Notes under the pieces: model-generated | Seen by the model: the letters and a program-made list of their open reading frames with translations, nothing else | Database searches by the model: none | What the model was told of the DNA's origin: nothing | Origin: Agromyces subbeticus DSM 16689 | GTDB taxonomy: Bacteria; Actinomycetota; Actinomycetes; Actinomycetales; Microbacteriaceae | Assembly: GCF_000421565.1 (NCBI RefSeq) | Contig: NZ_ATXG01000020.1 | Coordinates: 1-64,000, forward strand | Direction of reading: 5' to 3' | DNA: 64,000 nucleotides | Part shown: positions 1,247 through 44,304 of the stretch, piece by piece | How the letters are laid out: every line of letters starts with the position of its first letter | Position numbering within the stretch: the first letter of the stretch is position 1 | Position numbers and translations under genes: made by a program

Positions 1247-1257
1247 ATATGCGCGGC
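1247..1257 (-). promoter_or_regulatory. Class A box GCCGCGCATAT, leaderless promoter
   Basis: Seven nt separate the box from the ATG at 1239. The same box and spacing recur at ten other ICE starts. Confidence 0.65.
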
Positions 1258-1260
1258 AGG

Positions 1261-1485
1261 TCAGCCTCGGACGTAGCTGTCGAGAGAGAGGCCTGCCCAG
1301 TGAGCGAGCGCGGCGAGCGAGTCGATCGATGCGCGCTCTCCCTGTCCGATTCGGGTGAGGAGTGCACCTCCGACGCCGGCTTCGACCGCTGCGCCCTTCC
1401 GTGTGATCGCGCGTTCAAGCCGCACCTGGTCGAGGTCAGCGGCGAATGCGGGCATGTCGAACGAGGCCACAGGTTTCAGCGGCAT
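1261..1485 (-). CDS. Small XRE/Cro-type helix-turn-helix protein
   Basis: 74 residues. Residues about 17-65 read as a compact helix-turn-helix: a recognition segment AGVGGALLTRIGQGERASI followed by SLAALAHWAG, typical of Cro/CI-type folds. Start chosen at the ATG preceded by GGAGGTGA with good spacing. An 11-codon leader ORF with its own strong ribosome site ends three nt upstream, suggesting coupling. Likely a local transcriptional regulator of the ICE; its target is not visible. Confidence 0.6.
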   Translation of the reverse strand: MPLKPVASFDMPAFAADLDQVRLERAITRKGAAVEAGVGGALLTRIGQGERASIDSLAALAHWAGLSLDSYVRG

Positions 1486-1488
1486 CCG

Positions 1489-1524
1489 TCACCTCCGGCC
1501 TGCTGGCCGTATCGGTGCTGGCAT
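1489..1524 (-). CDS. Eleven-codon leader ORF upstream of the HTH gene
   Basis: Reads MPAPIRPAGRR and stops. A perfect GGAGGG sits 7 nt before its ATG. The stop TGA is 3 nt from the next ATG, and the next gene's ribosome site lies inside this ORF. That arrangement favours translational coupling or attenuation rather than a functional peptide. Confidence 0.4.
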   Translation of the reverse strand: MPAPIRPAGRR

Positions 1525-1570
1525 CGTCTCGCCCTCCAGTGCGCACGCCGGTCGTGCGACTCCGCGAGGG

Positions 1571-1581
1571 ATATGCGCGGC
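1571..1581 (-). promoter_or_regulatory. Class A box upstream of leader ORF and HTH gene
   Basis: GCCGCGCATAT on the minus strand, about 85 nt before the HTH gene. No start codon follows at 7 nt, so this would give a leadered transcript. Confidence 0.55.
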
Positions 1582-1585
1582 AGCT

Positions 1586-2123: not shown

Positions 2124-2130
2124 GCCGGGG

Positions 2131-3504: not shown

Positions 3505-3633
3505 GCGTGTCGCACGCAGGTCGTCCGCTGCAGGGTGAAAGGAGAGGCCCAGGAGGTGCCATGAAAACCCCAGTCCGCCTTCGCCGTGTTGAATGCTGGT
3601 CCTCCTGAGTTTCGGCGTTGACGTGCGACACGC
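3505..3633. repeat. Perfect 12-bp inverted repeat beside the tRNA-like cluster
   Basis: GCGTGTCGCACG (3505-3516) and its exact complement (3622-3633) flank 105 bp without a supported gene. The right arm ends one base before the CCA end of the first tRNA-like sequence. Confidence 0.6.
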
Positions 3634-3634
3634 A

Positions 3635-3708
3635 TGGTGGTCTCGTCCGGGATCGAACCGGCCGGTTCCGCCTGGATCGGCGGTGTGTTCCGTTGCAGCA
3701 ACGAGACC
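3635..3708 (-). tRNA. tRNA-like sequence 1, encoded CCA end
   Basis: 74 nt with a perfect 7-bp acceptor stem (GGTCTCG/CGAGACC), discriminator A and an encoded CCA. A T-loop TTCGATC with four paired T-stem bases, a 5-nt variable loop and a 5-bp anticodon stem CCGCC/GGCGG are present. The anticodon loop is only 6 nt (GATCCA, with T then CCA) and the D-stem pairs poorly. It could be a decayed tRNA-Trp-like gene or an unusual element-borne tRNA. Confidence 0.4.
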
Positions 3709-3720
3709 AGCGGGTGTCCT

Positions 3721-3811
3721 CACGGCGGACGGGAATCGAACCCGCCACCCGGGACTCGCTAGCAGTCCCGGCCCGTACCCGTACGGAGTAGCGCCTTGCC
3801 ACTTCCCCCGT
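3721..3811 (-). tRNA. tRNA-like sequence 2
   Basis: 91 nt. The acceptor arms ACGGGGG/CCGCCGT pair with one mismatch, and the T-arm is perfect (GCGGG, TTCGATT, CCCGT). A D-arm-like hairpin with GG in its loop, an extra CCGTAC/GTACGG hairpin and an 8-bp hairpin with loop GCTAGCG lie between. There is no standard 7-nt anticodon loop with T33, so a charged tRNA is doubtful. Confidence 0.35.
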
Positions 3812-3893
3812 GAGGAACCCTGGCGAGCCGCACTGGAGCAGCTCGCGTAGTGAAAGTCGGGCCTGTCCGGTCAGTTCTAGACCCCGATTCTTG

Positions 3894-3958
3894 CGACCTC
3901 GACCGGGCTTGAACCGGCCCCGCGATCTGGCGGGGGAGCACCATGGCTCCTCAAGGCC
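3894..3958 (-). tRNA. tRNA-like sequence 3, shortened
   Basis: 65 nt. Acceptor arms GGCCTTG/CGAGGTC pair over 7 positions (two G-T), the D-stem is GAGC/GCTC with a 6-nt loop, the central stem is CCCCG/CGGGG and the T-arm is GCCGG-TTCAAGC-CCGGT. The variable loop is missing and the central loop lacks T33. It is transcribed in the same direction as the other two. Confidence 0.35.
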
Positions 3959-4040
3959 TCACCGATCAGATCGGTGAAGAAGATGTGTGTCGTTCCCGTG
4001 TGGAGTTCTACGTTCGCCCGGCTTCCCGGGCTCGACCTGC

Positions 4041-4051
4041 ATATGCGCGGC
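4041..4051 (-). promoter_or_regulatory. Class A box upstream of the tRNA-like cluster
   Basis: GCCGCGCATAT pointing at the three tRNA-like sequences, about 80 nt before the first. No coding start follows, so this copy may drive a non-coding transcript. Confidence 0.5.
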
Positions 4052-4080
4052 ACCGACCGGAGTTCGTGCGGGCAAGCAGC

Positions 4081-4176
4081 TCATTGAGCTGCGACGGCGA
4101 GCAACAGCCAGATTGCGATCGCCGACCAAGCGGCCAGAACACCCACGAGCAGCCCTGCGCGGACGAGCGCGCTCAT
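4081..4176 (-). CDS. 31-residue single-helix membrane peptide
   Basis: MSALVRAG, then an almost uninterrupted Leu/Val/Ala/Trp helix, ending AVAAQ. The ATG overlaps the stop codon of the upstream 93-residue gene (TGATG), so translation is coupled. One transmembrane helix fills nearly the whole peptide. It resembles small membrane peptides of conjugative and phage elements only in general character; no family is recognised. Confidence 0.5.
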   Translation of the reverse strand: MSALVRAGLLVGVLAAWSAIAIWLLLAVAAQ

Positions 4177-4457
4177 CAGAACGGCACCTCATCGCAGGCG
4201 ACTGCACCGGCGGAGAGCTCCGGCGCCGCAGCAGGGGCGAGGACTCTGAGGCTCTTCACGAACGGGTTCCGGTGACCGAGCTCGCCACGGACGACGAACC
4301 GGCCCTCTGGCGCATCGACACGGAGGCGGCTGCCGTCGAGGTAGACGAGCCCCGTCACCTCGTACTCCGGCTCGATGACGGAGGCGAAGGTGAACGCGAC
4401 TCTGTCGCCGGTGCGGATGGCGGCAACGTCGTATCGGCCGTCGGTCAGGTGATCCAT
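4176..4457 (-). CDS. Hypothetical ICE protein
   Basis: 93 residues, predicted beta-rich: AAIRTGDRVAFTFASV, EYEVTGLVYLDGSRLRVDA, GRFVVRGEL. The alternation suggests a small barrel, but no named family is recognised. Start taken at MDHLTDG because GGGAG lies 8 nt upstream; the long frame reads through the promoter box. It is coupled to the 31-residue membrane peptide. A class A box lies 22 nt upstream of the start. Confidence 0.55.
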   Translation of the reverse strand: MDHLTDGRYDVAAIRTGDRVAFTFASVIEPEYEVTGLVYLDGSRLRVDAPEGRFVVRGELGHRNPFVKSLRVLAPAAAPELSAGAVACDEVPF

Positions 4458-4479: not shown

Positions 4480-4490
4480 ATATGCGCGGC
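4480..4490 (-). promoter_or_regulatory. Class A box
   Basis: GCCGCGCATAT on the minus strand, 22 nt before the ATG at 4457, giving a leadered transcript with a GGGAG ribosome site. Confidence 0.55.
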
Positions 4491-11315: not shown

Positions 11316-11326
11316 CGCGCGCATAG
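11316..11326 (+). promoter_or_regulatory. Degenerate class A box
   Basis: Reads CGCGCGCATAG, then 7 nt, then the ATG at 11334. Confidence 0.45.
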
Positions 11327-11656: not shown

Positions 11657-11667
11657 TCCGCGCATAT
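11657..11667 (+). promoter_or_regulatory. Class A box
   Basis: TCCGCGCATAT, one mismatch from consensus, 29 nt before the ATG at 11697 (GGGAG ribosome site). Confidence 0.55.
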
Positions 11668-11696: not shown

Positions 11697-12131
11697 ATGA
11701 GCAGCACGGCCGATCAGGACCGGACCCAGTTCAGTAGCGGCAAGCACGAGAAGCTCACGGCCGCATGGTGCGTGTATCTGGTAGCCAAGAACGGGCGCAC
11801 CCGACAGCAGTACGTGTGGGCAACGACTTGGGACGATGCCATGGTCGCGGCCGAGCGCGCGAACCCGCGGTTTCAGGCACACAGCGCTGGGCCGAGCGTC
11901 GACGCTGCCCACGCCCGTCCGCTCCACAACCTCGCCAACCCGATCCTGGTCGAGTTCCGCGAGGCCATCGCATCCGGCGATCCCTACGCGACACCGGGAG
12001 ACTGGCTCGCGAACCTCGACGCGATGGAGACCGGCTCCGATGCTTGGCGCTGGCGCGACACCCCATACCTCGATCACGCCGAGCGCGTCCTGACGCTCCT
12101 CGCCGCCCTCACCCCGAAGGCGTCCACATGA
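11697..12131 (+). CDS. Hypothetical ICE protein
   Basis: 144 residues. An N-terminal stretch (HEKLTAAWCVYLVAKNGRTRQQYVWATTWDDAMVAAE) looks like a small alpha/beta unit similar in rhythm to short phage or plasmid proteins; the rest is helical. No named family. Ribosome site GAGGGAG with 7-nt spacing. It is the first gene of a plus-strand operon whose members overlap by four bases, and a class A box lies 29 nt upstream of its ATG. Confidence 0.55.
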   Translation: MSSTADQDRTQFSSGKHEKLTAAWCVYLVAKNGRTRQQYVWATTWDDAMVAAERANPRFQAHSAGPSVDAAHARPLHNLANPILVEFREAIASGDPYATPGDWLANLDAMETGSDAWRWRDTPYLDHAERVLTLLAALTPKAST

Positions 12132-12265: not shown

Positions 12266-12744
12266 AGACCCCCGCCCAGATCGCGCACGCGCTCGTCTGG
12301 CCGACGCCGGACACGACCATCCACACGAGCCTCGCGGCAACCGCCCTAAAGGGCTACGACGGCGACCTCTGCGATTTGCTCGTGAAGGCCGTCGAGGTCG
12401 ACCGCGCCCAGCGCGAGCCTGCCGCCGCCCACGCCGGCGACTGGGAGGTGACCTCATTCGAGGATGGCCCCGACGGTGAAGATGGCAAGTGGATCACCGT
12501 CGAGACTTACGATCCTGACCGCGAAGCCGCGAACGATGACGACGGGCCGGTGTGCGCCGCCTCGATCCTCATGTCGGCGATCGAGGCACTCGACCTCTAC
12601 CGCGCGCTCGGCTCGGCAATCGCCGACCACGCGCCCGCACATCTGCCCGAGTACGACACGTCAGGCAGCGCGAGTCGCCAGCACTACATCGACACCGGCA
12701 CCTATCTGACGCACGACGAAATCACGAAGGAGGTGGCGCGATGA
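12262..12744 (+). CDS. Hypothetical acidic protein
   Basis: 160 residues from GTG, preceded by AGGAGG with 8-nt spacing. Begins MKTPAQIAHALVWPT, strongly acidic in the middle (GPDGEDGKWITVETYDPD, NDDDGP), helical at the C-terminus. No family recognised. The -1 frame zinc knuckle upstream is in register with this gene, so a longer fusion form starting upstream is conceivable. Coupled to both neighbours by overlapping start and stop codons. Confidence 0.55.
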   Translation: MKTPAQIAHALVWPTPDTTIHTSLAATALKGYDGDLCDLLVKAVEVDRAQREPAAAHAGDWEVTSFEDGPDGEDGKWITVETYDPDREAANDDDGPVCAASILMSAIEALDLYRALGSAIADHAPAHLPEYDTSGSASRQHYIDTGTYLTHDEITKEVAR

Positions 12745-13244
12745 GCGAGGGAATCCGCGCGGTCACGTACCGTCATTACGTCGTGTGCGTGATCTGCGGC
12801 AAGCGTGCCGAGTCCCGTCTCGCCGATGAGCGCGGCGGCGCATTCAAGCTCGAACGCGAGCACGCCGCCCAGCGCCGCGCCGAAGGTTGGCGCGTGTTCG
12901 CCAGTTCGTTCTAGGAGCCGAGCTGCGGTCACCTCGAGGCGGTCGCAGACAGGGAGGAGCCTGGCCCACAGGTCGGTGTCGAGCCGGACGTAGAGCACTT
13001 CGCCATCTCGGTTCACCGCAGGGCGCGGGGCAGCCGTCGGCTGGCGACGGAGCGCGCGCATCCCGAGGCCCTTCCTGACGATCGTGTCCACGAGCTCGTC
13101 GGGGCTCAGGCTCATCCGCTCGCACCTAGTGAGGAACGCGTCACGGACTGGAGCGCGTAGCCGCAGGCCGACGGGCACCTGGCATTCGATCGGTGCCCCA
13201 GGGGCGTGGCGCCACCTCTCAACGGTCTCAATCGCGATTGCCAT
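12702..13244 (-). CDS. Hypothetical protein, possible ribbon-helix-helix
   Basis: 180 residues. The segment VPVGLRLRAPVRDAFLTRCERMSLSPDELVDTIVRKGL has the strand-helix-helix rhythm of ribbon-helix-helix DNA-binding proteins, followed by a longer C-terminal part of unknown type. Start set at the ATG 7 nt after a class A box. The last 213 nt lie antisense to the small gene at 12741-12914, a true tail-to-tail overlap unless one of the two is not expressed. Divergent from the methyltransferase-helicase gene. Confidence 0.5.
   Translation of the reverse strand: MAIAIETVERWRHAPGAPIECQVPVGLRLRAPVRDAFLTRCERMSLSPDELVDTIVRKGLGMRALRRQPTAAPRPAVNRDGEVLYVRLDTDLWARLLPVCDRLEVTAARLLERTGEHAPTFGAALGGVLAFELECAAALIGETGLGTLAADHAHDVMTVRDRADSLAHRATSFVISSCVR
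12741..12914 (+). CDS. Small CxxC protein
   Basis: 57 residues: YRHYVVCVICGKRAESRLADE and a helical basic tail ending VFASSF. One CVIC pair suggests a zinc knuckle, perhaps completed by dimerisation. ATG overlaps the upstream stop (ATGA). The whole gene is antisense to the 3' end of the 12702-13244 gene, so at most one of the two is likely to be strongly expressed at a time. No family recognised. Confidence 0.45.
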   Translation: MSEGIRAVTYRHYVVCVICGKRAESRLADERGGAFKLEREHAAQRRAEGWRVFASSF

Positions 13245-13251: not shown

Positions 13252-13262
13252 ATATGCGCGGC
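13252..13262 (-). promoter_or_regulatory. Class A box, leaderless promoter
   Basis: GCCGCGCATAT on the minus strand, 7 nt before the ATG at 13244. Confidence 0.65.
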
Positions 13263-13289: not shown

Positions 13290-13300
13290 GCCGCGCATAT
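13290..13300 (+). promoter_or_regulatory. Class A box for the methyltransferase-helicase
   Basis: GCCGCGCATAT 47 nt before the ATG at 13348. It is divergent to the box at 13252, with 27 bp between the two. Confidence 0.6.
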
Positions 13301-13347: not shown

Positions 13348-16300
13348 ATGAACCGCACCGCCCGAGCCAGCCTGGCCGCGCTGACCACCCTCCATGAGCT
13401 CAACGGTGAAGCGACCCCCGAGCAGCGCGAGATCCTCACCGGATTCACCGGCTGGGGCGCGCTGGCCCCCGCACTCTCGCTCATCCCTTCGGAGGAGTGG
13501 CTGCCGACGGCGGACCTCCTCGACACGCTCGTCAGCCCGGACGCGCTCGACATCGCCCGCGACGTCTGCGACACCTCGTTCTTCACGCCGGCGACCGTGA
13601 CCCGTGCCGTTTTCGACCTCCTCCGCGCGACCGGCTTCACCGGCGGCCGCGTGCTCGAGCCCGGTTGCGGCTCCGGCGCGTTCATTGGCGCTGCACCCGC
13701 GGACCTGCTCATCGAATGGACCGGTGTCGATATCGACCCGACCGCGACGGCGATCGCCCGTGCACTGCACCCCGCCGCGAACATCCTGACCGGCGGGCTG
13801 CAGACTGCTCGCATCCGCTCCGGCAGCTTCGACGCCGTCGTCGGCAACGTGCCCTTCGCCCGCACGACGGTTCACGACCCGAACCTCCCGTCGAAGTCGC
13901 TGCACGAGTACTTCATCCTGCGCGCGCTCGATGCCGTCAAGCCCGGCGGCTACGTCATCGTCGCCACCAGCCGCCACGTCCTCGATGCTGAACGGGCGGA
14001 CAGCGCCGTCTTCGAGGGCGCCGACCTCATCAGTGCCGTGCGTCTGCCGTCCGGCACGTTCCCCGGCACAGACGTGGTCGCGGACGTACTCGTGCTCCGC
14101 CGGCGCGCAAACGACGTGCACCCGGGCTGGGCGCTTCCGACCCGCTCGGTCGAGCGTGCCCTGAGCCACCGGTACGGCACCTACACCAGCGTCGAACCGA
14201 TCGATCACGAAGTGGCAACAGGGGAGCACCGCACCACGATCTCCGGCCGCTGGACCGGACACGAGGCGTGCATCGCAGGCACACTCGTCGCGACCGGATA
14301 CGACCCCGCACCTCTCCGCGTGCACGCTGCGGACATCCCGGCCGCGATTTCAGCCGCCACCGCAGCCGCGGCCGCGTACGTCCTCGAAGTCCCGCAGACG
14401 CCGACCGTCGGCAGCCTCGACGACGTCATACTCGAAGACGAGCTTGGCCGGAAGGTCGGGTCTTTCCAGATCATCGACGGCACGGTTATGCAGGTCCGCG
14501 AGAATGGCATCGTGCCTGTGGCCCGCGCCGGCGCCGAGCTGCGCGCGTTGATCGCACTCCGCGACGCTGCGCTCGAGCTCATCGAGCAGGAGTCGCACCC
14601 TGAGCGACCGGATGCCGTGATCGCCCCGGTCCGCGCGGCTGCGCTCGAGCTCTACACCGCGTACGCGGCGAAGTTCGGCGCCTTGAACCGGGGCAACCTC
14701 GTCGAAGGCAAGGTCGATCCGGAGACCGGTGAGCCGACGTACTCCTGGCGCCGGCCGCCGATGGGCGGGTTCCGCCGCGATCCCGACTACGTCTCAGTCC
14801 TCGCGCTGGAGCAGTTCGACCAGGGCACCGGTGAGGCTGGCCCCGCTCCGATCCTCATCCGCCGAGTCGGCGCGTACCCGCCGCGCGCAACGACCGCGGC
14901 ATCCGCTGAGGAAGCTCTCGCGATCAGCCTCGCGGAGACCCGGACGGTCGATCTCGCACGTATCGGCGGCCTCCTCAGCTGCGATGAGCCGGAAGCTCGC
15001 GGGCGCCTGGGCGGCGCAGTCTTCGCCGACCCGGAGACCGGCGACCTCCTGACTGCCCGCGACTACCTCTCGGGCGACGTCCGCCGGAAGCTGGAGCGTG
15101 CCCGCGCGGCCGGCGAGCGGTACGCCGAGAACATCGCGGCGCTGGAAGCGGTCATGCCCGCCGAGCTCACCGCGCTCGACATCCGCCCGCAGCTCGGCGC
15201 GACGTGGATCCCCGCCCTCGACGTGGAGAACTTCGCACAGGAGACCTTCGGCTGCCGCGTGACGATTCAGTTCACCCCGGCGATCGCGCTGTGGGAATCG
15301 GACTCGCAGAAGTGGGCCCGCGCGTCGGCTGAAGCGCAGCTCGCGTACGGGACGCGCGACAAGTCCCCGATCGACCTGCTCCTCGACGGGTTGAACGGGA
15401 AGTCCCCGACCGTCTACGACGAGTTCTACGACGCCGAGCGCGGCACCAATCGGAAGGTCCGCGACCCGCAGCGCACCCTCGCCGCAGAGGAGAAGCTTCG
15501 GACGATCCAGGACCGGTTCGCAACGTGGCTGTGGGAGGACAAGGCCCGTGCTGAGCGGATCGTCACCGAGTACAACCGCCGGTTCAACTCGCACGTCGCA
15601 CGCCGCGGCGACGGCTCCTACCTGACCTTCGACGGCCTCGACGAGCGGGTGTCCCTGTGGGCGCATCAGCGAGACGCCGTTGACCGGGTCGTGTCGAGCG
15701 ACCGCGTCATCATCGCTCACCCCGTAGGAGCCGGGAAGGCGCAACCGATGGACTCACTTGTTCTCACTCCAACGGGGTTCCGCCGCATGGGCGACTTCAT
15801 GGTCGGTGATGATGTAATCGCGCCTGACGGTTCAACGACCAAGATCACGGGCGTGTTTCCTCAGGGGCCCCTCGGCCTATACCGGGTGACCTTCAGCGAT
15901 GGCGCCGTTGTCGAGTGCAACGACGAACACCTATGGAATGTCGCGACGCACGAGATGCGGCGCGCACGAGTGCAAGATAACGGGTGGAAGACCCTCACCC
16001 TTCGCGAGATCGTCAAGTCCAGCCTGACCGACGCGAGAGGGCAGCTGAAGTATTGGGTCCCTCAGCAGGTGGCTGCAGACTTCGACGGCGGGGGTGACCG
16101 GCCTCTCGACCCGTACTGGCTTGGACTTTTGCTCGGCGACGGCTGCGTGACTACCTCTGCTGTCGACTACACGAGCGCCGACGACGAACTCGTCCAGGCC
16201 TTCGAGGCGGGATTGCCCGAGGGGCAGGTGCTCCGCAGGAGCAGCACCCGGCCGCATGACTATCACGTGAGGTCATCGACGAAGGGTGCCAGACAGCCGC

Positions 16301-19130: not shown

Positions 19131-19141
19131 GCCGCGCATAT
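19131..19141 (+). promoter_or_regulatory. Class A box
   Basis: GCCGCGCATAT just after the methyltransferase-helicase stop, 39 nt before the ATG at 19181. Confidence 0.6.
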
Positions 19142-19180: not shown

Positions 19181-19399
19181 ATGGACGGGTTCGGGCAGAC
19201 GGCCGACATTCACGCAAGTGAACGATCGCTGTCCGACTGGCCGACCGCGTATGTCCGTGGCTGCGCTGCGATTGTCAGGAACGCGGCACGCTGCTTCCAA
19301 GCAGCACCAACCGAGGCGAACGCTGTCGAGCTTGAGCGTACGACGGCGAACCTCGGCGCCGCGGTCGAAGACTGGAGGTCCGCCTCTCGATCACGCTGA
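19181..19399 (+). CDS. Small hypothetical protein
   Basis: 72 residues, MDGFGQTADIHASERSLSDW at the start, then a helical Ala-rich part ending SASRSR. Ribosome site GGAGAGG 6 nt upstream and a class A box 39 nt upstream. No domain recognised. A longer upstream frame overlaps the helicase gene and is rejected. It sits alone between the giant helicase and the tagged sigma-like gene. Confidence 0.5.
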   Translation: MDGFGQTADIHASERSLSDWPTAYVRGCAAIVRNAARCFQAAPTEANAVELERTTANLGAAVEDWRSASRSR

Positions 19400-31881: not shown

Positions 31882-31892
31882 ATATGCGCGGC
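31882..31892 (-). promoter_or_regulatory. Class A box, leaderless promoter
   Basis: GCCGCGCATAT on the minus strand, 7 nt before the GTG at 31874. It lies immediately after the stop of the upstream gene. Confidence 0.65.
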
Positions 31893-32792
31893 TCAGACCG
31901 CGTATCTCCATTCGCGCTTGCGGGGAGTGTTTGTGTGCCGGCACTGAGGTGTGTGCTGAGCTCGCATGCGGAGCTTCCCGAAGGCGTTCGATCGGTCCTC
32001 GTCGAGCAGCCCATTCCGGTCCAGCTCACACTGTGTGGAGTGCCACTGGTACCAAAAGGCCTCGGTCTTGTTCTCTGTCGTCGGTCGCGGCGCGCAACCA
32101 CCGTTCTTGACGATCCATGCTTTGAAGCGCTCGAGCCGCGACTCGAAGCTCACGTCGACGCTGTCGCGCCAACCGACGAGAACCTGGTCGAGGCGCTCCT
32201 TCCGAGACGCGTCCAGCTGGTCGAGGCTGAACATCCAGCGCTGCCGGCGCAGCCAGCTCGCGAGTCGTCGTTCAGCCTCGGGCGCCTCATCCGAGTCGGT
32301 GGGCCACTCCTCGTTGAACTCCACCCACGCGAGGAACTGTCCGATTGATCGCTCCCAGGATCGGAAACCGTTGTCGAGGAGCCCAGACGCATGCTCCCGG
32401 AGCAGTGCCACCCGGTCGAGGCGACCATCAACGACTTCGCCGTCGGGCGTCTTCAGCACCTTCCGGCAACGGGTGGCCCAGACCCCGAGGCGTCGCTCGT
32501 ACGGCGTGGTGCCTGCGCCACTCATCCGGGGGTGTACGCCGTCGGACTCGGCGAGGAACAGCGCGTACTCGCGGAGGGTCTCGAGGAACCGTCGGTCGGC
32601 GGGCGAGTCAGCCCAACCCGGGATCCGCCCGACCCGGTCGGAGTCCGTAGCGGGGAGAAGACCTGAAGCGCGCTGGTAGCCGGTGTTCTCCGTCCAGATC
32701 GCGAGTTCACGTTCGTGTTCGATCCAGGGACGCGGTCGCCAGTCGGGGCCGTTCGCCGCAGCGAAAGCTCCGTACCGTTCGATCTCGTTCAT
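31893..32792 (-). CDS. Helicase-associated (HA) repeat protein
   Basis: 299 residues with at least three copies of the helicase-associated repeat: ERRLGVWATRCRKVLKT near 98-114, ERRLASWLRRQRWMFSLDQLDASRKERLD near 173-202 and a third ending in LLDEDRSNAFGKL near 260-272. These Trp/Arg-rich three-helix units bind nucleic acid and often follow helicases; here they form a separate protein beside the DinG-like helicase, which has its own class A box. ATG 7 nt after a class A box, no ribosome site. Confidence 0.65.
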   Translation of the reverse strand: MNEIERYGAFAAANGPDWRPRPWIEHERELAIWTENTGYQRASGLLPATDSDRVGRIPGWADSPADRRFLETLREYALFLAESDGVHPRMSGAGTTPYERRLGVWATRCRKVLKTPDGEVVDGRLDRVALLREHASGLLDNGFRSWERSIGQFLAWVEFNEEWPTDSDEAPEAERRLASWLRRQRWMFSLDQLDASRKERLDQVLVGWRDSVDVSFESRLERFKAWIVKNGGCAPRPTTENKTEAFWYQWHSTQCELDRNGLLDEDRSNAFGKLRMRAQHTPQCRHTNTPRKREWRYAV

Positions 32793-32799: not shown

Positions 32800-32810
32800 A
32801 TATGCGCGGC
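32800..32810 (-). promoter_or_regulatory. Class A box, leaderless promoter
   Basis: GCCGCGCATAT on the minus strand, 7 nt before the ATG at 32792. Back to back with the class B box at 32823. Confidence 0.65.
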
Positions 32811-33777: not shown

Positions 33778-34805
33778 AGAAGTCCAAGCCCGACAGCTGG
33801 CTCACCGACCAGATCGACCAACCGGTGCCAGAGGCCCCCGGCAGCCGAAAGGCCGAGCGCCGCCAACGCATCTACCGATGGCTTCTGCTCGGCTCGTTCG
33901 TGCTGTTCCCCGTGGCGCTGCTGTCAGTCGTAGTTCTCGCCGGCCAGGCGGCAGGCGAGGAACCGCCGACTGCCGTAGCTCCGGAGGTTCGGCTTGACGC
34001 ACCTGGCCGTGCAGCCGCCACGACGACGCTGCAGGCGTGGCTCGCCGCCGAGCCGGCCCCGGTTCCCGGCGGCGGCAGGATGCTCTCCTGGGATGGCGCC
34101 GAGACCGTCGTAGCGCCGACCGTTGCCGACGACGAGGCAGTCCCAGATGTGGAGCTGCACCAGTTCACGATCACGGACGAGGCGGGGACCGTCTACACGG
34201 TCACCGTCCCAGTGGCCGTCGACGATGTGCTCGGGTCACGAGTACTCTCGGCGCCGTCACTTGTCGCGGTCGCTCCGTCTGCGGGCTCGGGCTGGGCGAA
34301 GGACAACGTCTGGGCCGGGACGAAGGCGACCACCACAGCGAAGTCCGTCGACGCTGCCGTGAAGAGCTGGGCAGAGGCGTTCACCTCCGGCGACCCCGAC
34401 AAGCTGCGCATCACCGTCGCCGACCGCGCCGATGACCACTTCTACGTCCCACTGTCCGGGGTGGCCTCCGTGACCGCGTCCGTCGGGCAGGCGGCGTTCG
34501 TCGACACTGGCGACGAGACGTTCAAGAAGGACGGCACGAGCCCTGTGATGCTCGCGAACGTCACGCTCGAGATCGTCTGGGCCGGCGCCGAACCCTCGAA
34601 AGAGCAGGAGCCGACAACCGTCACCTACGACGTGCTCATTCACGACGCCGACACGGCAGCGCCTGTGATCGTCTCGTGGGGCCCCACGGGCGCCGGCCTC
34701 TCTCTGAAGCCATATGACCAGGCCGTTGTTGGTCGGGAGGTCGTGGCCGCAAGCCCCGCACCCGATGCCGAACCCGAAGACGATTCCAAGGAGGCGGGGG
34801 AGTGA
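33774..34805 (+). CDS. TcpC/VirB8-like conjugation protein
   Basis: 343 residues. A basic cytoplasmic start, one transmembrane helix (about residues 35-58), then a Pro/Ala linker and two beta-rich halves, the second with SVDAAVKSWAEAFTSGDPDKLRITVADR, which resembles the NTF2-like fold of VirB8/TcpC. TcpC-type proteins connect the channel across the envelope of Gram-positive cells. Coupled to the VirB4-like ATPase gene by a four-base overlap. The acidic C-terminal tail (PDAEPEDDSKEAGE) is likely disordered. Confidence 0.7.
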   Translation: MKKSKPDSWLTDQIDQPVPEAPGSRKAERRQRIYRWLLLGSFVLFPVALLSVVVLAGQAAGEEPPTAVAPEVRLDAPGRAAATTTLQAWLAAEPAPVPGGGRMLSWDGAETVVAPTVADDEAVPDVELHQFTITDEAGTVYTVTVPVAVDDVLGSRVLSAPSLVAVAPSAGSGWAKDNVWAGTKATTTAKSVDAAVKSWAEAFTSGDPDKLRITVADRADDHFYVPLSGVASVTASVGQAAFVDTGDETFKKDGTSPVMLANVTLEIVWAGAEPSKEQEPTTVTYDVLIHDADTAAPVIVSWGPTGAGLSLKPYDQAVVGREVVAASPAPDAEPEDDSKEAGE

Positions 34806-37279
34806 AGAGCTCCGAGCTGATGACCGCCCCCGAGTTTCCGACGATGGTCCGCCGCCGCTTCGCCGACGGTCGGATGCTGAACATCGACGGCAACAGTATG
34901 TGGCTCTACCGGCGGGTTCCGATGGGCGCCGTCGAGGACGCGAAGACCCCTGAAGACGCGATCCGCACCGGCGGTCCCATCATGGCGGCGATGGACATGC
35001 TCGCCGACATGCCGTCGATCCGATCGAAGCGGCGACGCGGCGCGAAGGGCGCGTACCGGGAGGTGCACCTCCTGTGGGTGAACGTCCCTACCGCCTACAC
35101 GCCGCCGCCTGGCCCGCTCGCACCGCACCTCGCGGCCAAGTTCCACGGAACCGCCGTCATGGACCGCGTCCTCCTCTTCGGTGTACGCCTCAACGCGACC
35201 GTCGGCACCGGCGGCTTTCGCGCCGCGCTCGATTCGGTTACCGAGACAATCGTGTCCGGCGGCACCCCGCTAGAGGACTACGACCGCGACTTCAACGCCG
35301 TCGACCAGGTGCTCGCCCGGGCGGGGCTCGTGACGCTGTCGCAGGACGGCTACCGCCTAGCGAACGCATGGTGGAACCCGGCTTCTGCGCCAGACATCCC
35401 GTACATGCCCCACGCCGACCACATGCACTTCTTCCGCACCGCGGATGCCGGCGCCCGCGCGACTCGCGCCGGCCTCGAAACCTGCGACGACTGGCCTGAC
35501 TTCCCCGACGCGCACGAGATCACCTTCGCCACAGTGGAGGACGTCTCACTCGAGTTCGTCGAGCACACGAAGCCCGCCTCGAAGTGGTTCCTCCCGTTCG
35601 TCGAGATGGGCGCCATCGTCGCCTCGATTCGCGGGACTCTCGAACCACCGCAGGTGACGCGCGCCGAGCTCCGACACCAACGGAAGGAGTACCTCCGCGA
35701 CATCAGCAAGGCCATGAACGACGGGCTGCTCAGCCGTGACGAGCACGACGCGAAGCTCGGCCAGCTCACGAGCGTCGAAGGCATCTACTCCGAGAACCGG
35801 GCGCCCGCCACACTCGTGAACGGGTCGATCATCGTCGGGTTCAACGGACACGTCGAATCGGTCGAGGACCTCTCCACCGAGGAGGTGACACTCAACTCCA
35901 TGATGTGGCGCCAGCCGGGCGCGTGGGCCGAAACGATGATCGCCTCATCCGCCCGGGCGAACCCGCATGCCGTCGAACTCCCGAGCGTCAGCTTCGGTAT
36001 CTCCGGGCTCGCATCCCTCTCGACCGTCGGAGACCGATCGGGCGCCCTCGTCGGCTTCACCGAGAAGGACCGGCAGCCCGCCTACTTGTCACCGTCGGCC
36101 GCGTCGACTGCGGACGGCTTGCCGATCTGCCTGGTCGCCGGGGCCACAGGGTCAGGCAAGTCATTGCTGATGTTGTCGCTCGCGGACCAGTTCGCCCGCA
36201 ACAACAACCCGAACGTGGTGATTGATCCAAAACCACAGAGCGATCATTCCGCCGCTGTGCTCCTCTCCGGTGGCCAGGTCGCATCTCTCGACGACATGGT
36301 CACCGGCGACGGGATCCTCGACCCTCTCCGGTTCGCCCAGAACCGGGCCTCCGCCGTGCAGGCGGCGTCGTCGATGCTGATGCTAGTGAACCCCTGGGGA
36401 GGTGACCGCGACCGCTACGAGGTCGACCTGCTCGCGTCACTGGAGTTCGGAGCTCAGAACGGCGCGACGTGCACCGGCCAGGCCCTGCGTATGGCAGAGG
36501 AGGCAGGAGTCGCACCGACCGAGATGGTCGCCGCGGTGATGAAACTGGCGAACTCGTTCCCAATGTTCCGGGCGTGCTTCGGTGTGAACCCCGGGACGAA
36601 TGCACTTCGTTTCGCGGACGGCATCACCCTCATCAAGGTCGGCTCGACGAACCTCGAACTCCCGAAACCGGGCCAGCAGGCGTCCTCGCTCACCCAGCGC
36701 GTCTCCGTCGCGGTCGTCCGCATGATGGTGTTCGGCTCCATGATGGCGCTGACCGGCCGGGGCGGCGTCCTCCACCTCGACGAGGCGTGGGTCGTGCTCG
36801 ACTCCACGCCCGACGAGGTCGAGCGCGTCGGCCGTCTCGCACGGTCGCAGAATGTCCTCCCGATCCTCTACACCCAGCGGGTCACCGACGCGGTGCGTGC
36901 GGGCCTCGCCGGGTACATCTCCCGTGGCCTAATCGGACCGATCAAGGACCCAGAGGAAGCCGCCGCGGCGTGCGAGCTGTTCAAGCTGGAGCCGACCGCC
37001 GAGCGCATCTCCAGGATCACGGCGCCGGCGCGCCTGTCGGGTACCGGCGACGACGAAGACGGCGAGCTCAACTGGGCGTCAATGCGCGCCCTCGTTGAGC
37101 GAGGCGCGGACGGGACCGTCGATGTGAAGCGCGGCGCGATCTTCACTTACATCGATCTAGCGGACCGGGCCATCCCGACGGAGGTCACGCTGCCGAACGA
37201 CTTCCTCACAGCTGCATCGACGAATCCCGATGACGTACGCCGTCGGATGATGGAACGCGAGGCGATGGTAGCGCGGTGA
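34802..37279 (+). CDS. VirB4-like conjugation ATPase
   Basis: 825 residues from GTG. Walker A is VAGATGSGKS near residue 446, Walker B VLHLDEAWVVLD near 657, followed by a conserved-type LARSQNVLPILYTQR sensor segment. The N-terminal 430 residues would contact the VirB3/VirB8-like proteins. VirB4 ATPases power assembly of the type IV channel. No transmembrane segment is present, as expected for a protein recruited by VirB3. End of the operon that begins at 32858. Confidence 0.8.
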   Translation: MKSSELMTAPEFPTMVRRRFADGRMLNIDGNSMWLYRRVPMGAVEDAKTPEDAIRTGGPIMAAMDMLADMPSIRSKRRRGAKGAYREVHLLWVNVPTAYTPPPGPLAPHLAAKFHGTAVMDRVLLFGVRLNATVGTGGFRAALDSVTETIVSGGTPLEDYDRDFNAVDQVLARAGLVTLSQDGYRLANAWWNPASAPDIPYMPHADHMHFFRTADAGARATRAGLETCDDWPDFPDAHEITFATVEDVSLEFVEHTKPASKWFLPFVEMGAIVASIRGTLEPPQVTRAELRHQRKEYLRDISKAMNDGLLSRDEHDAKLGQLTSVEGIYSENRAPATLVNGSIIVGFNGHVESVEDLSTEEVTLNSMMWRQPGAWAETMIASSARANPHAVELPSVSFGISGLASLSTVGDRSGALVGFTEKDRQPAYLSPSAASTADGLPICLVAGATGSGKSLLMLSLADQFARNNNPNVVIDPKPQSDHSAAVLLSGGQVASLDDMVTGDGILDPLRFAQNRASAVQAASSMLMLVNPWGGDRDRYEVDLLASLEFGAQNGATCTGQALRMAEEAGVAPTEMVAAVMKLANSFPMFRACFGVNPGTNALRFADGITLIKVGSTNLELPKPGQQASSLTQRVSVAVVRMMVFGSMMALTGRGGVLHLDEAWVVLDSTPDEVERVGRLARSQNVLPILYTQRVTDAVRAGLAGYISRGLIGPIKDPEEAAAACELFKLEPTAERISRITAPARLSGTGDDEDGELNWASMRALVERGADGTVDVKRGAIFTYIDLADRAIPTEVTLPNDFLTAASTNPDDVRRRMMEREAMVAR

Positions 37280-39321: not shown

Positions 39322-39332
39322 GCCGCGCATAT
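39322..39332 (+). promoter_or_regulatory. Class A box inside the sigma-like gene
   Basis: GCCGCGCATAT, 7 nt before an in-frame GTG at 39340. Confidence 0.65.
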
Positions 39333-39339: not shown

Positions 39340-40509
39340 GTGGATGATCTGAACAGCATGGTCGGCCGCTCTGCGATCGATGCTGAAATCGCCGACCTCG
39401 CTGAAAGCATCCGTGCCAACGAGCTCGATGAACGATCTGGTCGTGTGCTGATCTACTCGAAACTGATGGCCGCCGGTATCGCCCAGTCCGTGGCGCAAAG
39501 TCCGTGCAGCGTTCCGGAATGGCAGCGCGTTGATCTCGCTGATCTACTCAACGATGTGATCCTCGAGCGCACGCTGGAGTCGGATGAAGGCGGCTTCGAC
39601 CTCGACCGCGCCCGGCACGCCTCCGCTGAGGGATGGGCCCGGCAGCTCGCTCGTTCCGCGGTTCAGTCGTGCCTGCGCCGCCTCGCCGCTGACCGGCAGC
39701 GGAAGGTTGACGTCAATCCCGTCGTCGACGAGCGGATTCCCATGAGCGAGGCTGTCGCCGCTTACCATCGGCACGAGTCGACCGATGTGCTCCCCGAAGA
39801 GGCCGATTTCGAAGCCAGTGTCGAGTCCGCCCACGACGAATTCATCCTGAGTGCCAAGGGGCTGCAGTCCGCGTCGCGGCTAAAGCTCGCGGCCGGTGCG
39901 CTGGCCGAGGCGTACAAAGTGCCGATGCCGGTGCGCCCTGCGGACCTCCTCGATCGACTGTGGGTGACCGAGCGCGTCACCAAAGATCCCATGCTCGCCC
40001 GCGACTCCGCCCGCGCGTTCCACCAACTCGTGAGCGACCGGATGAGCCCCGAGCAGCAGGAGATCGACGAGCGCCTCCTCGCTCTCTGGGACGATTACAC
40101 CTTGGACGCGATCGAGCAGATCATCGAACGGGACGCCCGCATCGCGCAGACGCTCGTGCTCGCAACACTGGCCTCGAACCCGCGCCCTCACCGCGACTCC
40201 GTTGCCGGGACAATGAGCGTCATGCGGATGGCCTCGACCACGACTCTCTCGTGGATCCGGCTCTGCCGGGCGCTCCTGGAAGGCTGGCTCGCCACCGAAT
40301 GTGAGCTGGTCAGCACAAAGAACACTCGGCTCACCGCAGACCGTCTCGCCGAGCTCGAAGCGGCGCAGATTGCCGCCGCCGCCGACTGGCCAGCCGCGAT
40401 CGCCGAGGTCATCGCGATGCCCGACGCGCCGTTCGGGAGCACCGAACAGCAGGTGAAAGAGTGGATCGCCTCGGCCGTCGACTCGTTCCAGATCGCCCGG
40501 GCAAGCTGA
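39340..40509 (+). CDS. Sigma-like regulator with two leaderless starts
   Basis: 389 residues from GTG 39340, or 427 from in-frame ATG 39226. The segment DLADLLNDVILERTLESDEGGFDLD followed by GWARQLARSAVQSCLRRLAADR resembles sigma-70 region 2 with its core-binding helix; the remainder is helical without a clear region 4. The long form starts behind a TTGATA/CATAGT promoter containing a palindrome; the short form starts 7 nt after the class A box. That suggests repression by the neighbouring XRE protein and self-activation. Identity as a sigma factor is inference. Confidence 0.5.
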   Translation: MDDLNSMVGRSAIDAEIADLAESIRANELDERSGRVLIYSKLMAAGIAQSVAQSPCSVPEWQRVDLADLLNDVILERTLESDEGGFDLDRARHASAEGWARQLARSAVQSCLRRLAADRQRKVDVNPVVDERIPMSEAVAAYHRHESTDVLPEEADFEASVESAHDEFILSAKGLQSASRLKLAAGALAEAYKVPMPVRPADLLDRLWVTERVTKDPMLARDSARAFHQLVSDRMSPEQQEIDERLLALWDDYTLDAIEQIIERDARIAQTLVLATLASNPRPHRDSVAGTMSVMRMASTTTLSWIRLCRALLEGWLATECELVSTKNTRLTADRLAELEAAQIAAAADWPAAIAEVIAMPDAPFGSTEQQVKEWIASAVDSFQIARAS

Positions 40510-40511: not shown

Positions 40512-40522
40512 GCCGCGCATAT
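40512..40522 (+). promoter_or_regulatory. Class A box, leaderless promoter
   Basis: GCCGCGCATAT overlapping the end of the sigma-like gene region, 7 nt before ATG 40530. Confidence 0.65.
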
Positions 40523-40529: not shown

Positions 40530-41039
40530 ATGCAGAACCGCCAGACCTTCGTCTCGTTGCCCGGCCATGCCGCCGCGATACCGCTGATGCACGCTTGGCT
40601 CGACGACGACGGCGTGTTCAATGAACTTACGAGCCCGTCGGATGCAATCGTCGAACGGTATGCCGGGTGCGTCGGCCTCGCGATCGCGGTGATCGACGCG
40701 ACGCAAGGTCGAGGGTTGTTCGGCGCGCACGCGCAGACAGTCTCCGAAGTGCTCCAGCTTCACATGGAGCAGGGCCTCGTTCTCCGACGCTCGGGACTCG
40801 TCACGCCCCACACCGCGAGCGGTCGCCGGCTCATGGCGTTCGAGACTGCGCTGCTCGCCACCCTCCGGGCCGCCGCTGAAGGCCGGACCTCGAGCACCCA
40901 GTTTGGGGTCCCGAAGCAACCCGCCCTCCTCCGTGAGACCTTCGCCGCGATCTGCGGGTACCTCGAGGTGCTCCTCTCCGAGCAGGCGAAGGCCCACCGC
41001 CTCAGTGGCCCTGCCGAAGCGCTCGCCGTTCATGGTTGA
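40530..41039 (+). CDS. Hypothetical ICE protein, leaderless
   Basis: 169 residues, helical, no membrane segment. MQNRQTFVSLPGHAAAIPLMHAWLDDDGVFNELT at the start and a middle part with EVLQLHMEQGLVLRRSGLV. No family recognised. The start was chosen because the ATG follows the class A box by 7 nt; the longer frame would use codons inside the upstream gene. It stands between the sigma-like gene and the first of three tagged genes. Confidence 0.5.
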   Translation: MQNRQTFVSLPGHAAAIPLMHAWLDDDGVFNELTSPSDAIVERYAGCVGLAIAVIDATQGRGLFGAHAQTVSEVLQLHMEQGLVLRRSGLVTPHTASGRRLMAFETALLATLRAAAEGRTSSTQFGVPKQPALLRETFAAICGYLEVLLSEQAKAHRLSGPAEALAVHG

Positions 41040-41052: not shown

Positions 41053-41063
41053 GCCGCCCTTAT
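41053..41063 (+). promoter_or_regulatory. Class A box (CTTAT form), leaderless promoter
   Basis: GCCGCCCTTAT, 7 nt before ATG 41071. Confidence 0.65.
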
Positions 41064-41070: not shown

Positions 41071-41886
41071 ATGAGCACGATGAAGCGTCAGCCATCCGGC
41101 CAGCCGATCGGCGGCCAGTTCGCCGCTGGGTCACGGCAGGAGTCCCATGTCTCCCTCTCTCAGGCGTCCACCCGCACCGGCCCGCTCGAGCTCACGTTCG
41201 ATCAACTACAGGTCGGGGACGAGTTCATCGATCATTCGGCGGCTGCCGGCGATCTCCGAGACCACTACCTCAAGGTGATCTCGTCGCGTCAGCACATTGT
41301 CGGTGGGAACCGTTACCAGCGGATCGACTACGAGACCCGCGACGGCCGAACAGGTACCGGCGACTTCCTCGTCGCCTACGCTGACAGCGAGAAGGACGAG
41401 CGCTGGCCGAGGAAGGCCCCGAAGGCGACCATCTATGGGAAGTGGGTCGACGCCGCCGACCGTGACTACGAGCCGGTGCAGGTGCCGTCCGCACGCGAGG
41501 TCGCTGAGGCGGCCGTGGACCGGCTCTTCGCCGAGGACCCTGCTGCTGCGTACCAGCTCTACCGTGGGATGCTCTCGAAGGTCCGCTCTGCGGAGTATCC
41601 GCGGCTTCGGTTCGAGTTCAGGCCCGACCCCGATTATCCCGACGAGCCCGAAGCCGTGATTCCGACGTTCATCGACCCGTACACAGGTGAGGAAACAGGC
41701 ATCCGGATCGTCGACCGTGCCGTCCGCTGGACGGAGAACGACTCGATCGAGCCAGACCCCGAGGAGGAGATGATCTCCGTCGACTACGGCGGCGGTGACG
41801 ACGGGAACGGTTTCGAGACTCTCGTCTACACGTCCACGATGACTGGTAAGCCAGTCCGCCTTCCTGAAGGTTGGGAGGAGCGGTGA
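41071..41886 (+). CDS. Tagged hypothetical protein
   Basis: 271 residues. Residues 5-28 carry the tag KRQPSGQPIGGQFA and RQESHVSL. A following domain (LELTFDQLQVGDEFIDHSAAAGD..., YLKVISSRQHIVGGNRYQRIDYETRDG) looks beta-rich, reminiscent of a small barrel that reads out a modified ligand, but no family is recognised. Later part is helical and the end acidic. Leaderless start behind a GCCGCCCTTAT box. The next tagged gene overlaps its stop. Confidence 0.6.
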   Translation: MSTMKRQPSGQPIGGQFAAGSRQESHVSLSQASTRTGPLELTFDQLQVGDEFIDHSAAAGDLRDHYLKVISSRQHIVGGNRYQRIDYETRDGRTGTGDFLVAYADSEKDERWPRKAPKATIYGKWVDAADRDYEPVQVPSAREVAEAAVDRLFAEDPAAAYQLYRGMLSKVRSAEYPRLRFEFRPDPDYPDEPEAVIPTFIDPYTGEETGIRIVDRAVRWTENDSIEPDPEEEMISVDYGGGDDGNGFETLVYTSTMTGKPVRLPEGWEER

Positions 41887-42863
41887 GCGGGCCGCAACGG
41901 CAGCCCGCAGGCCAGCCCATCGGCGGTCAGTTCGCCACGAGCCACCGGTCTGAATCAGGACCAGGACTCACCCAGCTCGAAGGCGCCGGCCTCCGCGACC
42001 GGTTCGAGTGGGCTGACGACGAGATGATCGCACGGATCGCAGACGACAAACCATCAGCGTGGGTCGCCGAGCCGCCACTTGAGTGGGAAGCAAATTACGA
42101 CGCCGGTGACCCGATCCCGTGCTCGCGCTGCGGCGGCATCCTGCGAAGCGGGTGGCCCGGCGTCCCGGGGAAGTGGGCACACGACGACGATGACGTGAAC
42201 TGCTGGGATGTGGTCACGGCAGCGCGCGCTGCCGTCCAGGCGCACCGCGACGTTGAGAGGGCCCTCTCCGCGGATGCAGCCGACGCGGCAGAGCGACTTG
42301 CACGACAGATGACCTGCGCCGCTCGTGAGCTCGCGCGGGATCCGAAGGCAGCCGACCGGGTCGGTGGTACCTTCACCGTCCTCAACCAGATGGTGCGCGT
42401 CCAAGATGGACGTGTCACCGCCGAGCATCTCGGCAAGCTCATCGAAACCCACAGGGGAATCAACGCTGGAGCGTGGGGTGATCTGAACGAAGGCGCCCGG
42501 CGCGAGCTCTGGGTGTCGATCGGCGATCAGGCGGCCGTCGACGCGTCCGAACGAGGCCTCGACAGCAGCGACCTGGACCTCGCCCGCCCGCTTGACGCGA
42601 TCCTCGACGCGCGATCGGACGAACTCCGTCAGGAGAATCTCGGCGCTGTGCGGACGGACGCGGTCCTGATCTTGCTGGAGGCGGGCAAGGCGGTCGCGAA
42701 TCGGCACCTCGTCGGCGACCCTCGGTTCCCCCGCTGGACGCAGGAGGCGTACGAGCACATGGTGCGGCCCTACCAGGTCGTCTTCGGCACCGTGCATCCG
42801 GCCGACTCACAGCGTCCGTCGAGCTGGGAGAAGCGTCCGGTACTGCTCGCCAGCGCCAAGTAG
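41883..42863 (+). CDS. Tagged hypothetical protein with zinc ribbon
   Basis: 326 residues from GTG overlapping the previous stop, with GGAGGAG just upstream. Tag at residues 4-24 (PQRQPAGQPIGGQFA, RSES). Around residue 80 CSRCGGILRSGW and a later Cys (NCWDV) suggest a zinc ribbon. The rest is helical: ADAAERLARQMTCAARELARD, then a long Asp/Arg-rich part. No named family. Coupled expression with the first tagged protein of this cluster. Confidence 0.6.
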   Translation: MSGPQRQPAGQPIGGQFATSHRSESGPGLTQLEGAGLRDRFEWADDEMIARIADDKPSAWVAEPPLEWEANYDAGDPIPCSRCGGILRSGWPGVPGKWAHDDDDVNCWDVVTAARAAVQAHRDVERALSADAADAAERLARQMTCAARELARDPKAADRVGGTFTVLNQMVRVQDGRVTAEHLGKLIETHRGINAGAWGDLNEGARRELWVSIGDQAAVDASERGLDSSDLDLARPLDAILDARSDELRQENLGAVRTDAVLILLEAGKAVANRHLVGDPRFPRWTQEAYEHMVRPYQVVFGTVHPADSQRPSSWEKRPVLLASAK

Positions 42864-42910
42864 ACGGCTGCAGCGGGCGCTCGCACTGGACGATCCATCT
42901 GCGGGCGCCC

Positions 42911-42921
42911 GCCGCCCTTAT
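42911..42921 (+). promoter_or_regulatory. Class A box (CTTAT form), leaderless promoter
   Basis: GCCGCCCTTAT, 7 nt before ATG 42929. Confidence 0.65.
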
Positions 42922-42928
42922 CCAGGTC

Positions 42929-44182
42929 ATGAGCACTTTGCACCGCCAGCCTGCCGGACAGCCGACGGGTGGCGAGTTCGCATCTAAGGGGCGCGCCGAA
43001 TCTGCCGTCTCCCTGACCGCCGGCACCGCTCCCCAGGAGAACGCCGCCGGCCCGAGTGTTCGGGTATTCGCACATCACCTGAGCGCCGTCGAGCGCCGCG
43101 TCGATGAGGCCAATCGGAAGCTTGCCCGGGCAGGCATCGAAGAGCGGTTCGCCTTCGAGACCGAGTCGATTGTTGAGCACCGCGACGGCATCGACGTCGA
43201 GCTGCTCGAGGTGCGGCTGAACGCTCCGAGGATCAGCTACGGCGGCTGGCAGATCACCGGCGTGCACGAGTTCACGCCGTCCGGCGATGTCATCTCCCAC
43301 ACCTTCGGGCGCGAGGACGCGCCAGCCGTCGAGGACGCGCATTGCGATCAGTGCGGCACGAACCGGCGACGCGAGAAGGTGTACACCCTCAGCCATCACG
43401 GTGAGGGAGGCCGCCAAGTCGGAAGCTCCTGCCTCACGCCGTTCCTCGGCGTCCGCCCTGAAGGGCTCTGGGCAATCGGCGACGACCTCGACCTCGACGA
43501 CTTCGATGCCGGGAATGGGTCCAACCTGAACGCTCGCGTCTTCGACACCAGCGACCTCGTCGTCGCCGCACTCGTAGCATCCGCCGATGGAGAGGAGTAC
43601 GTCTCCGCCTCGCAGGGGAGCTGGACCGTGCAGCCCACCGCAGCCCGAGCGACAAGGCAGTTCGCCGCGCTCCTCGGATCAGGGGATACACCGGCGCGGA
43701 GGAAGCTCGCCAACCGCATCATCCGATGGGTGAAGAAGCAGCCAGACGACGGCGCTGACTCGTACATGGCGAACCTCAAAGCATCGCTCGGCGGCGACTG
43801 GGTGAAGACGAAGCACGCCGGCATCGCTGTCTCCGCCGTGTCCGCGTTCCGGCACGCCGAACGGCGCGAACGAGCGACCAAGCAGAAGGCGAAGGAGAAG
43901 GCAGCCGAGCAGCGAGCATTCCTCGCACCGAAGGACGCAAAGCTCGCCCAGGTTCCCGCCCGCGTCAGATCGATGCACTCCTTCGAGACGATGTACGGCG
44001 ACATGACCATCGTGCAGCTGGTCACCGACGACGGATACGTCCTCAAATGGAAGACGCAGAACCCGCAGGACCTCGCAGAGGGGCAGGCCGTCACCATTGA
44101 CCGGGCCACTGTGAAGGCCCACGAGATCTACCGCGACACCTTCGAGACCGTGATCCTCCGACCGAAGTTCACCGTCGGCTGA
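42929..44182 (+). CDS. Tagged protein with a four-ligand zinc site
   Basis: 417 residues. Tag at residues 5-28 (HRQPAGQPTGGEFA, RAES). Around residue 131 CDQCGTNRRREKVYTLSHHGEGGRQVGSSCLTPFLG gives CxxC, His and a later Cys, a pattern seen in proteins of actinobacterial plasmids and phages, function unknown. A Lys/Ala coiled coil near residue 310 precedes a C-terminal domain (MTIVQLVTDDGYVLKWKTQNPQDL, AVTIDRATVKAHE) with OB-fold-like strands. Leaderless start behind a class A box. Confidence 0.6.
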   Translation: MSTLHRQPAGQPTGGEFASKGRAESAVSLTAGTAPQENAAGPSVRVFAHHLSAVERRVDEANRKLARAGIEERFAFETESIVEHRDGIDVELLEVRLNAPRISYGGWQITGVHEFTPSGDVISHTFGREDAPAVEDAHCDQCGTNRRREKVYTLSHHGEGGRQVGSSCLTPFLGVRPEGLWAIGDDLDLDDFDAGNGSNLNARVFDTSDLVVAALVASADGEEYVSASQGSWTVQPTAARATRQFAALLGSGDTPARRKLANRIIRWVKKQPDDGADSYMANLKASLGGDWVKTKHAGIAVSAVSAFRHAERRERATKQKAKEKAAEQRAFLAPKDAKLAQVPARVRSMHSFETMYGDMTIVQLVTDDGYVLKWKTQNPQDLAEGQAVTIDRATVKAHEIYRDTFETVILRPKFTVG

Positions 44183-44293
44183 CTGGAGGAGTCATCGCCA
44201 GCCTGGCCGGCCGGTGAGGTGGCGGTTCAGCGCGCTCGTTATGGCGTCACTCTCGATGTGGACGTGTCGCCTACTCGCTGAGAGGGCTGCCTC

Positions 44294-44304
44294 TGCCGCG
44301 CATA
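44294..44304 (+). promoter_or_regulatory. Class A box
   Basis: GCCGCGCATAT 33 nt before the ATG at 44338, which has its own GGAG ribosome site. Confidence 0.6.

Follow-up and report, generated by a model that had tools for sequence, protein, structure and literature searches.

A 64,000-nt stretch of the Agromyces subbeticus DSM 16689 genome (NZ_ATXG01000020.1, positions 1 to 64,000; here the window, on contig C20) carries part of an integrative and conjugative element (ICE) in which one short sequence, GCCGCSCWTAT, recurs in front of genes. We find that this box is probably a promoter class private to a family of conjugative elements, read by the host RNA polymerase together with a divergent sigma factor that the element itself encodes (19473-20456). 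Sequence comparison establishes the confinement of the box to the element, its fixed distance and orientation, a start signature at box+8, the lack of a -35 element, its recurrence in eight giant plasmids and its presence before the sigma gene.

To begin with the distribution of the box, a pattern search of the window gave 16 exact matches, none of which lies beyond 44.4 kb. When up to one mismatch was allowed there were 23 matches, compared with 3.58 +/- 1.74 in shuffled sequence, and none of 100 shuffles reached 23. The first-pass annotation had listed 18 boxes: 16 are exact and lie where it placed them, except that the last begins at 44295 and not 44294, while the copy at 11657 has one mismatch and that at 11316 is degenerate. 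The latter (CGCGCGCATAG, then 7 nt, then ATG) is weak and near the form found in Curtobacterium; together with ten exact copies it makes up the 11 boxes that were correctly said to lie 7 nt from ATG or GTG. The whole 4.30-Mb genome holds 35 exact boxes, of which 16 are on C20, 15 on a second contig (C8:1-30 kb) and 4 elsewhere, so that the element has 31 of the 35 and the remaining ~4.2 Mb only 4. Half of the regulon thus lies on a contig that the earlier annotation had missed. All 16 genomic sites with an exact box, 7 nt and ATG/GTG fall within the element (10 on C20, 6 on C8), and the reversed pattern gave none in the same genome. None of the four outside copies has this spacing. Among 149 other genomes of the same genus, family and order, seven had one match each, which we regard as background since the reversed control matched about as often (10 matches in 9 genomes). 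C20:1-46 kb and C8:1-30 kb appear to be the halves of a single element of ~76 kb, integrated at a tRNA-Asn site, with a presumed junction where the starts of the contigs would meet. A repeat of 77 columns and 89.6% identity links the element end at 45895-45970 of the window to C8:29800-29876 in opposite orientation, as expected for facing contigs, and extends into the 3' end of the tRNA-Asn (C8:29842-29915, minus strand).

To look for the box in related elements, we used the VirB4/TrbE-like ATPase (34802-37279, plus strand) as a query. It matched 39 plasmid records, and the eight top-ranking plasmids, 375-608 kb in size, come from Curtobacterium, Arthrobacter, Pseudarthrobacter and Paenarthrobacter. 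By the core genes that it shares (VirB4, FtsK-like, helicase, PD-(D/E)XK and others), the element belongs with the pACHL01 giant-plasmid family, and for 22 of its 71 predicted proteins tblastn gave matches in each of three plasmids (one stretch, read on opposite strands, accounts for two of the 22). In three of the eight plasmids, W01 (Curtobacterium) and W02 and W03 (Micrococcaceae), 8-mers were tested without prior choice of motif for a preferred distance to ATG/GTG; p-values here, and for the box-position excess and promoter-flavour tests below, are uncorrected. CGCACACA stood out at 8 nt in W02 (76 of 182 copies, p 1.6e-65) and W03 (85 of 161, p 3.1e-84), and CGCGCATA at 8 nt in W01 (27 of 73, p 4.4e-22; best 8-mer p 2.3e-23). 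Applied to 400 kb of host chromosome, this test reached a p of 3e-9 at best, with the box position at background (8 versus 7.97). Over whole records, KCCGYACACA N8 RTG occurs 76, 107, 89, 86 and 73 times in the five plasmids from Micrococcaceae; the three from Curtobacterium have 11, 18 and 11 such sites, and there CCGCGCAYA N8 RTG occurs 80, 64 and 91 times (0, 0, 1, 0 and 0 in the other five). The reversed controls gave 0 in all eight for the first pattern and 1 in a single record for the second, so each plasmid has 64-107 sites of its lineage form against 0-1 in the controls; these are sequence matches and not checked genes, and in pCPAA3 at least three sites occur twice, near both record ends. 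Five of the eight plasmids had no part in motif discovery. The proposed motif search of related elements thus turned up lineage versions of the box at the same spacing in eight giant plasmids.

Outside these plasmids the picture is more varied. The Bifidobacterium megaplasmid pMP7017, whose VirB4 is 27% identical, has neither box form and no sigma match at E 1e-5. Around G377 (9 versus 2.00), G206 (9 versus 2.13) and G327 (12 versus 3.10) the box position shows a clear excess, which is slight around G250 (6 versus 3.23), not clear around G422, G023 and G500, and absent from L117 and L118. In G348 a variant, GCCCACAT, lies 8 nt from the start; at L135-L138 of G348 the variant box is mostly GCAGCCCACAT, 8 nt before the ATG of genes whose products begin MSxFDPxQ. 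We take the G348 variant to be a further lineage version of the box with its own N-terminal motif. The element's own form with the start-site step occurs 0-2 times per genome in four VirB4-bearing relatives and not at all in W01-W04, because the forms of the relatives differ. A search for VirB4 relatives with short patterns in genome contigs gave none.

The first-pass annotation had proposed a dedicated sigma or activator, and this is well supported by sequence: the element encodes a divergent sigma-70-like protein with homologues in all eight box-rich plasmids. The 327-aa product of 19473-20456 (plus strand) carries the tag RQPKGQPIGGQFA at its N-terminus, followed by region 2 (residues ~43-112), further helices and a C-terminal helical domain. 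Pfam Sigma70_r2 matched four of the eight homologues (best 3.1e-4), which gives the protein the region 2 that marks the sigma-70 family. In an hmmsearch of the PDB, sigma factors made up 7 of the 11 rows, including the top five (E 0.035-0.25), and hhalign to six chromosomal extracytoplasmic function (ECF) sigma factors gave P 2.7e-5. Judged by eye from titles, chain letters and lengths, sigma chains accounted for at least 47 of the 50 rows listed by Foldseek and 47 of the 50 listed by VIA. One of the VIA rows, at rank 35, is T4 gp55, the late sigma that lacks region 4 and reads an extended -10 without a -35. The element protein, in which no match to region 4 was found (non-detection is not proof of absence), would likewise read an extended -10 without a -35, but gp55 is a phage factor that works with coactivators, and the likeness is one of general sigma-2 fold. 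Scans of viral contigs for the sigma-like protein, and for a second conserved protein (39340-40509, plus strand), gave no match. For 16 of the 21 homologues, a box stands before the sigma gene itself, at a distance of 7 or 8 nt. If this protein is the reader of the box, its region 2 and the adjacent region would recognise an extended -10 without a -35, and the box before its own gene would let it amplify itself; the whole regulon would then be switched on together, with leaderless mRNAs from about half of the element's promoters.

Alternatively, the box could be read by the host housekeeping sigma with an element-encoded adaptor, in the manner of sigma adaptation, while the sigma-like protein has some other function. 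The 39340-40509 protein is one candidate adaptor, being encoded by the same eight plasmids and having a box before its gene in five of the six copies examined (the window, W02, W03, L111 and L112; not L110). Another is the DUF7455 protein (952-1239), which is leaderless in the element and has a relative in all three plasmids tested (weak in two). Yet the box, a long and almost unvarying sequence, has no TAnnnT-type -10 and lacks a second conserved upstream element, and a sigma-like protein of the same distribution exists, so we consider an adaptor unlikely. The 39340-40509 protein had itself looked region 2-like by eye and was tried as a second sigma; the PDB, Pfam and hhalign to the sigma-like protein and to the ECF sigmas (P 0.25 for the latter) gave no support. 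The DUF7455 protein is related to uncharacterised phage families, and its own family is presumably found near sigma genes in actinobacteria.

Next we asked what the box does at the sites that carry it. An alignment of 32 sites (the 31 exact copies and 11657) shows Y at -19, the box from -18 to -8, C at -6, G at -3, Y at -1 and R at +1, and nothing conserved in the -35 region. Using a lenient definition of a Shine-Dalgarno-like (SD-like) sequence, 16 sites are leaderless, one has a 1-nt leader, 14 have an SD-like start 10-106 nt downstream and one lacks a clear gene. The earlier description of the regulon as leaderless therefore holds for 16 exact copies out of 31; 13 of the remaining 15 have an SD-like site at the start, and the last two are the 1-nt leader and the site without a clear gene. 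The pyrimidine-purine step at box+8 is nevertheless kept in 14 of these 15 copies, and among copies away from start codons in the three plasmids it is present in 57 of 98, 32 of 63 and 35 of 52, each time the top of 15 offsets (next best 28, 30 and 22). With NCBI-annotated starts in three 42-kb stretches, 14 of 134 coding sequences have the box exactly 7 nt upstream, and SD-like sequences precede none of these 14 as against 48 of the other 120. Since leadered copies keep both the start-site step and SD-like sites of their own, the box appears to be a promoter (spanning roughly -18 to -8, with no -35) rather than a translation signal. A role in translation initiation, as for the start-associated sequences of cluster K mycobacteriophages, would fit the 16 of 31 copies whose box ends 7 nt before the start codon, but it leaves aside the 15 copies off start codons, and the box holds no purine-rich Shine-Dalgarno core; we regard it as very improbable. 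An operator for a repressor or activator overlapping ordinary promoters has just as little chance, for although conserved sites that recur on mobile elements often prove to be operators, the box lacks symmetry, faces a gene in 31 of 32 sites and keeps a fixed distance to the inferred +1, with no other promoter element co-conserved.

Many of the element's proteins also share an N-terminal tag, R-Q-P-x-G-x-P-x-G-G-Q-F-A or a close form, found in 9 element proteins, 21 of W02, 44 of W03 (at least one of these open reading frames (ORFs) looks false by eye) and 8 of W01, and in none from 400 kb of chromosome. The tagged starts are at 19473, 24707, 41071, 41883 and 42929 of the window and at C8 2203, 7429, 18692 and 20018, plus L064-L083. 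A 33-residue tag query, which misses the Curtobacterium forms, matched 6 of 72,556 plasmids (one weakly, E 0.3) and none of 50,697 phages. The sigma, ArdC, Fic and a DNA ligase are among the proteins with the tag, and Pfam matched 5 of the 20 submitted. Their promoters have a flavour of their own: in the element, T at -11 is found in 6 of 6 tagged versus 1 of 9 untagged promoters (p 1.4e-3; one 32-aa leaderless ORF is below the length limits of 40 aa, or 60 aa for this test). The last box base is not T in 14 of 15 tagged versus 13 of 66 untagged promoters in W02 (p 1.4e-7) and in 17 of 24 versus 5 of 79 in W03 (p 5.3e-10); in W01 the link is not significant (0.06) and the trend is reversed. 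Quite tentatively, the tag may be a signal for conjugative delivery, by which the donor would inject ready-made sigma with the DNA and the recipient could immediately transcribe and translate the leaderless regulon, much as the virion of phage N4 brings along the RNA polymerase of the phage. The two promoter sub-flavours, one of them on tagged genes, would then separate delivered, donor-made products from the others. We suggest this because some ArdC-type proteins are known to travel with DNA (PMC5512222). For the earlier idea that the leaderless messages could be translated as soon as they enter a new host, the tag common to the sigma, ArdC and Fic offers indirect support at most.

We then compared the system with known ones. 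The nearest is SigN (ZpdN) of the B. subtilis plasmid pBS32, a plasmid sigma with a mostly plasmid-confined regulon and positive autoregulation (PMC6751061). Here too the sigma is on the element and the regulon is confined there (by sequence, across the Agromyces genome, the 149 other genomes and the eight plasmid records), and the sigma gene mostly sits behind its own promoter type. However, SigN promoters have both a -35 and a -10 and sigN is controlled by LexA (PMC6751061), whereas here no -35 is conserved, region 4 is undetected, about half of the element promoters are leaderless and the promoter class spans a giant-plasmid family and an ICE. Start Associated Sequences of cluster K mycobacteriophages (PMC3203893) and cluster EF Microbacterium phages (PMC7302621) are likewise short, highly conserved, element-confined and at a fixed place before many starts. 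They lie at the ribosome-binding position, and those of cluster K are proposed to act in translation (PMC3203893), a role that does not fit here, as 15 of 31 exact boxes are off start codons and the sequence evidence is for a promoter. In the establishment regulons of the pLS20 family, repressor-controlled strong promoters or long inverted-repeat regions (PMC8708921) similarly control scattered operons, including ardC, that are thought to be active on arrival in the recipient; the term sigma factor is absent from that text. Finally, polyvalent proteins of conjugative elements and phages, whose delivery with DNA is inferred (PMC5512222), have a counterpart in an element product with ArdC-N and metallopeptidase-PolyVal domains. 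What differs is the short common tag on dozens of separate proteins, sigma included; the term sigma is likewise absent from the text of PMC5512222. In the open-licence literature, to which the search was limited, we found no report of the sigma, the box or the tag of this element.

The genes behind the boxes of the window are varied. On the minus strand, leaderless genes follow the boxes at 1247-1257 (7 nt before the ATG of the DUF7455 gene), 2131-2141 (gene 1869-2123), 13252-13262 (12702-13244), 31882-31892 (GTG start, helicase gene 29625-31874) and 32800-32810 (31893-32792, with a helicase-associated domain). The minus-strand boxes at 1571-1581 (gene uncertain, 1261-1485 by script), 4041-4051 (~89 nt, gene uncertain) and 4480-4490 (15 nt and an SD-like site, gene 4176-4457) are leadered. 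On the plus strand, the degenerate box at 11316-11326 precedes the ATG at 11334; leaders follow the one-mismatch box at 11657-11667 (22 nt, SD-like site, gene 11697-12131) and the boxes at 13290-13300 (40 nt, methylase-helicase gene 13348-19122), 19131-19141 (SD-like site, 19181-19399) and 44295-44305 (25 nt, SD-like site, 44338-44865). Three plus-strand boxes are of the CCCTTAT flavour: 19455-19465 at the leaderless start of the sigma-like gene, and 41053-41063 and 42911-42921 before tagged genes (41071-41886 and 42929-44182). The leaderless conserved gene 39340-40509 (GTG) and the likewise leaderless gene 40530-41039 follow the boxes at 39322-39332 and 40512-40522, respectively. Boxes stand back to back and divergent at 13252/13290 and at C8:4357/4387, where the box and its spacer GCAGGTC are the same on both strands. 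"ICE cargo", the term used at first, is too narrow for these genes, since the box also fronts the gene of the sigma and genes for anti-restriction, helicase, nuclease and sortase proteins.

Besides a tyrosine-integrase gene (C8:25843-26973), the element encodes the VirB4/TrbE-like ATPase, FtsK/TraB-like proteins, a PD-(D/E)XK nuclease, helicases, ArdC, Fic and a sortase. No RNA polymerase was found among the proteins run against Pfam, PHROGs and NCBIfam (not every element ORF), and a crude D-x-D-G/A-D motif search of the 71 predicted proteins gave one match, by eye inside a LAGLIDADG-like motif. The large methylase-helicase protein carries a LAGLIDADG-like stretch, possibly an intein, and in NCBIfam it weakly matches part of a replicative-helicase model. 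A large surface-type protein, whose C-terminal sorting motif looks LKNTG-like by eye, and a sortase occur in the one element (C8:22786-25041 and 3593-4339), with a box at C8:22626, ~140 nt upstream of the surface-protein ORF. An ECF-type sigma factor gene (62510-63058) lies beyond the element, where the window is chromosomal.

If the proposed sigma-box pairing is right, a family of giant plasmids and ICEs would run its own promoter language through the host RNA polymerase, diverging by lineage, and plasmid regulons would become predictable from sequence. The actinobacterial toolbox would gain leaderless promoters and sigma factors that are orthogonal to those of the host, and one could test directly whether a sigma works on a -10-type box alone and travels into a new host.

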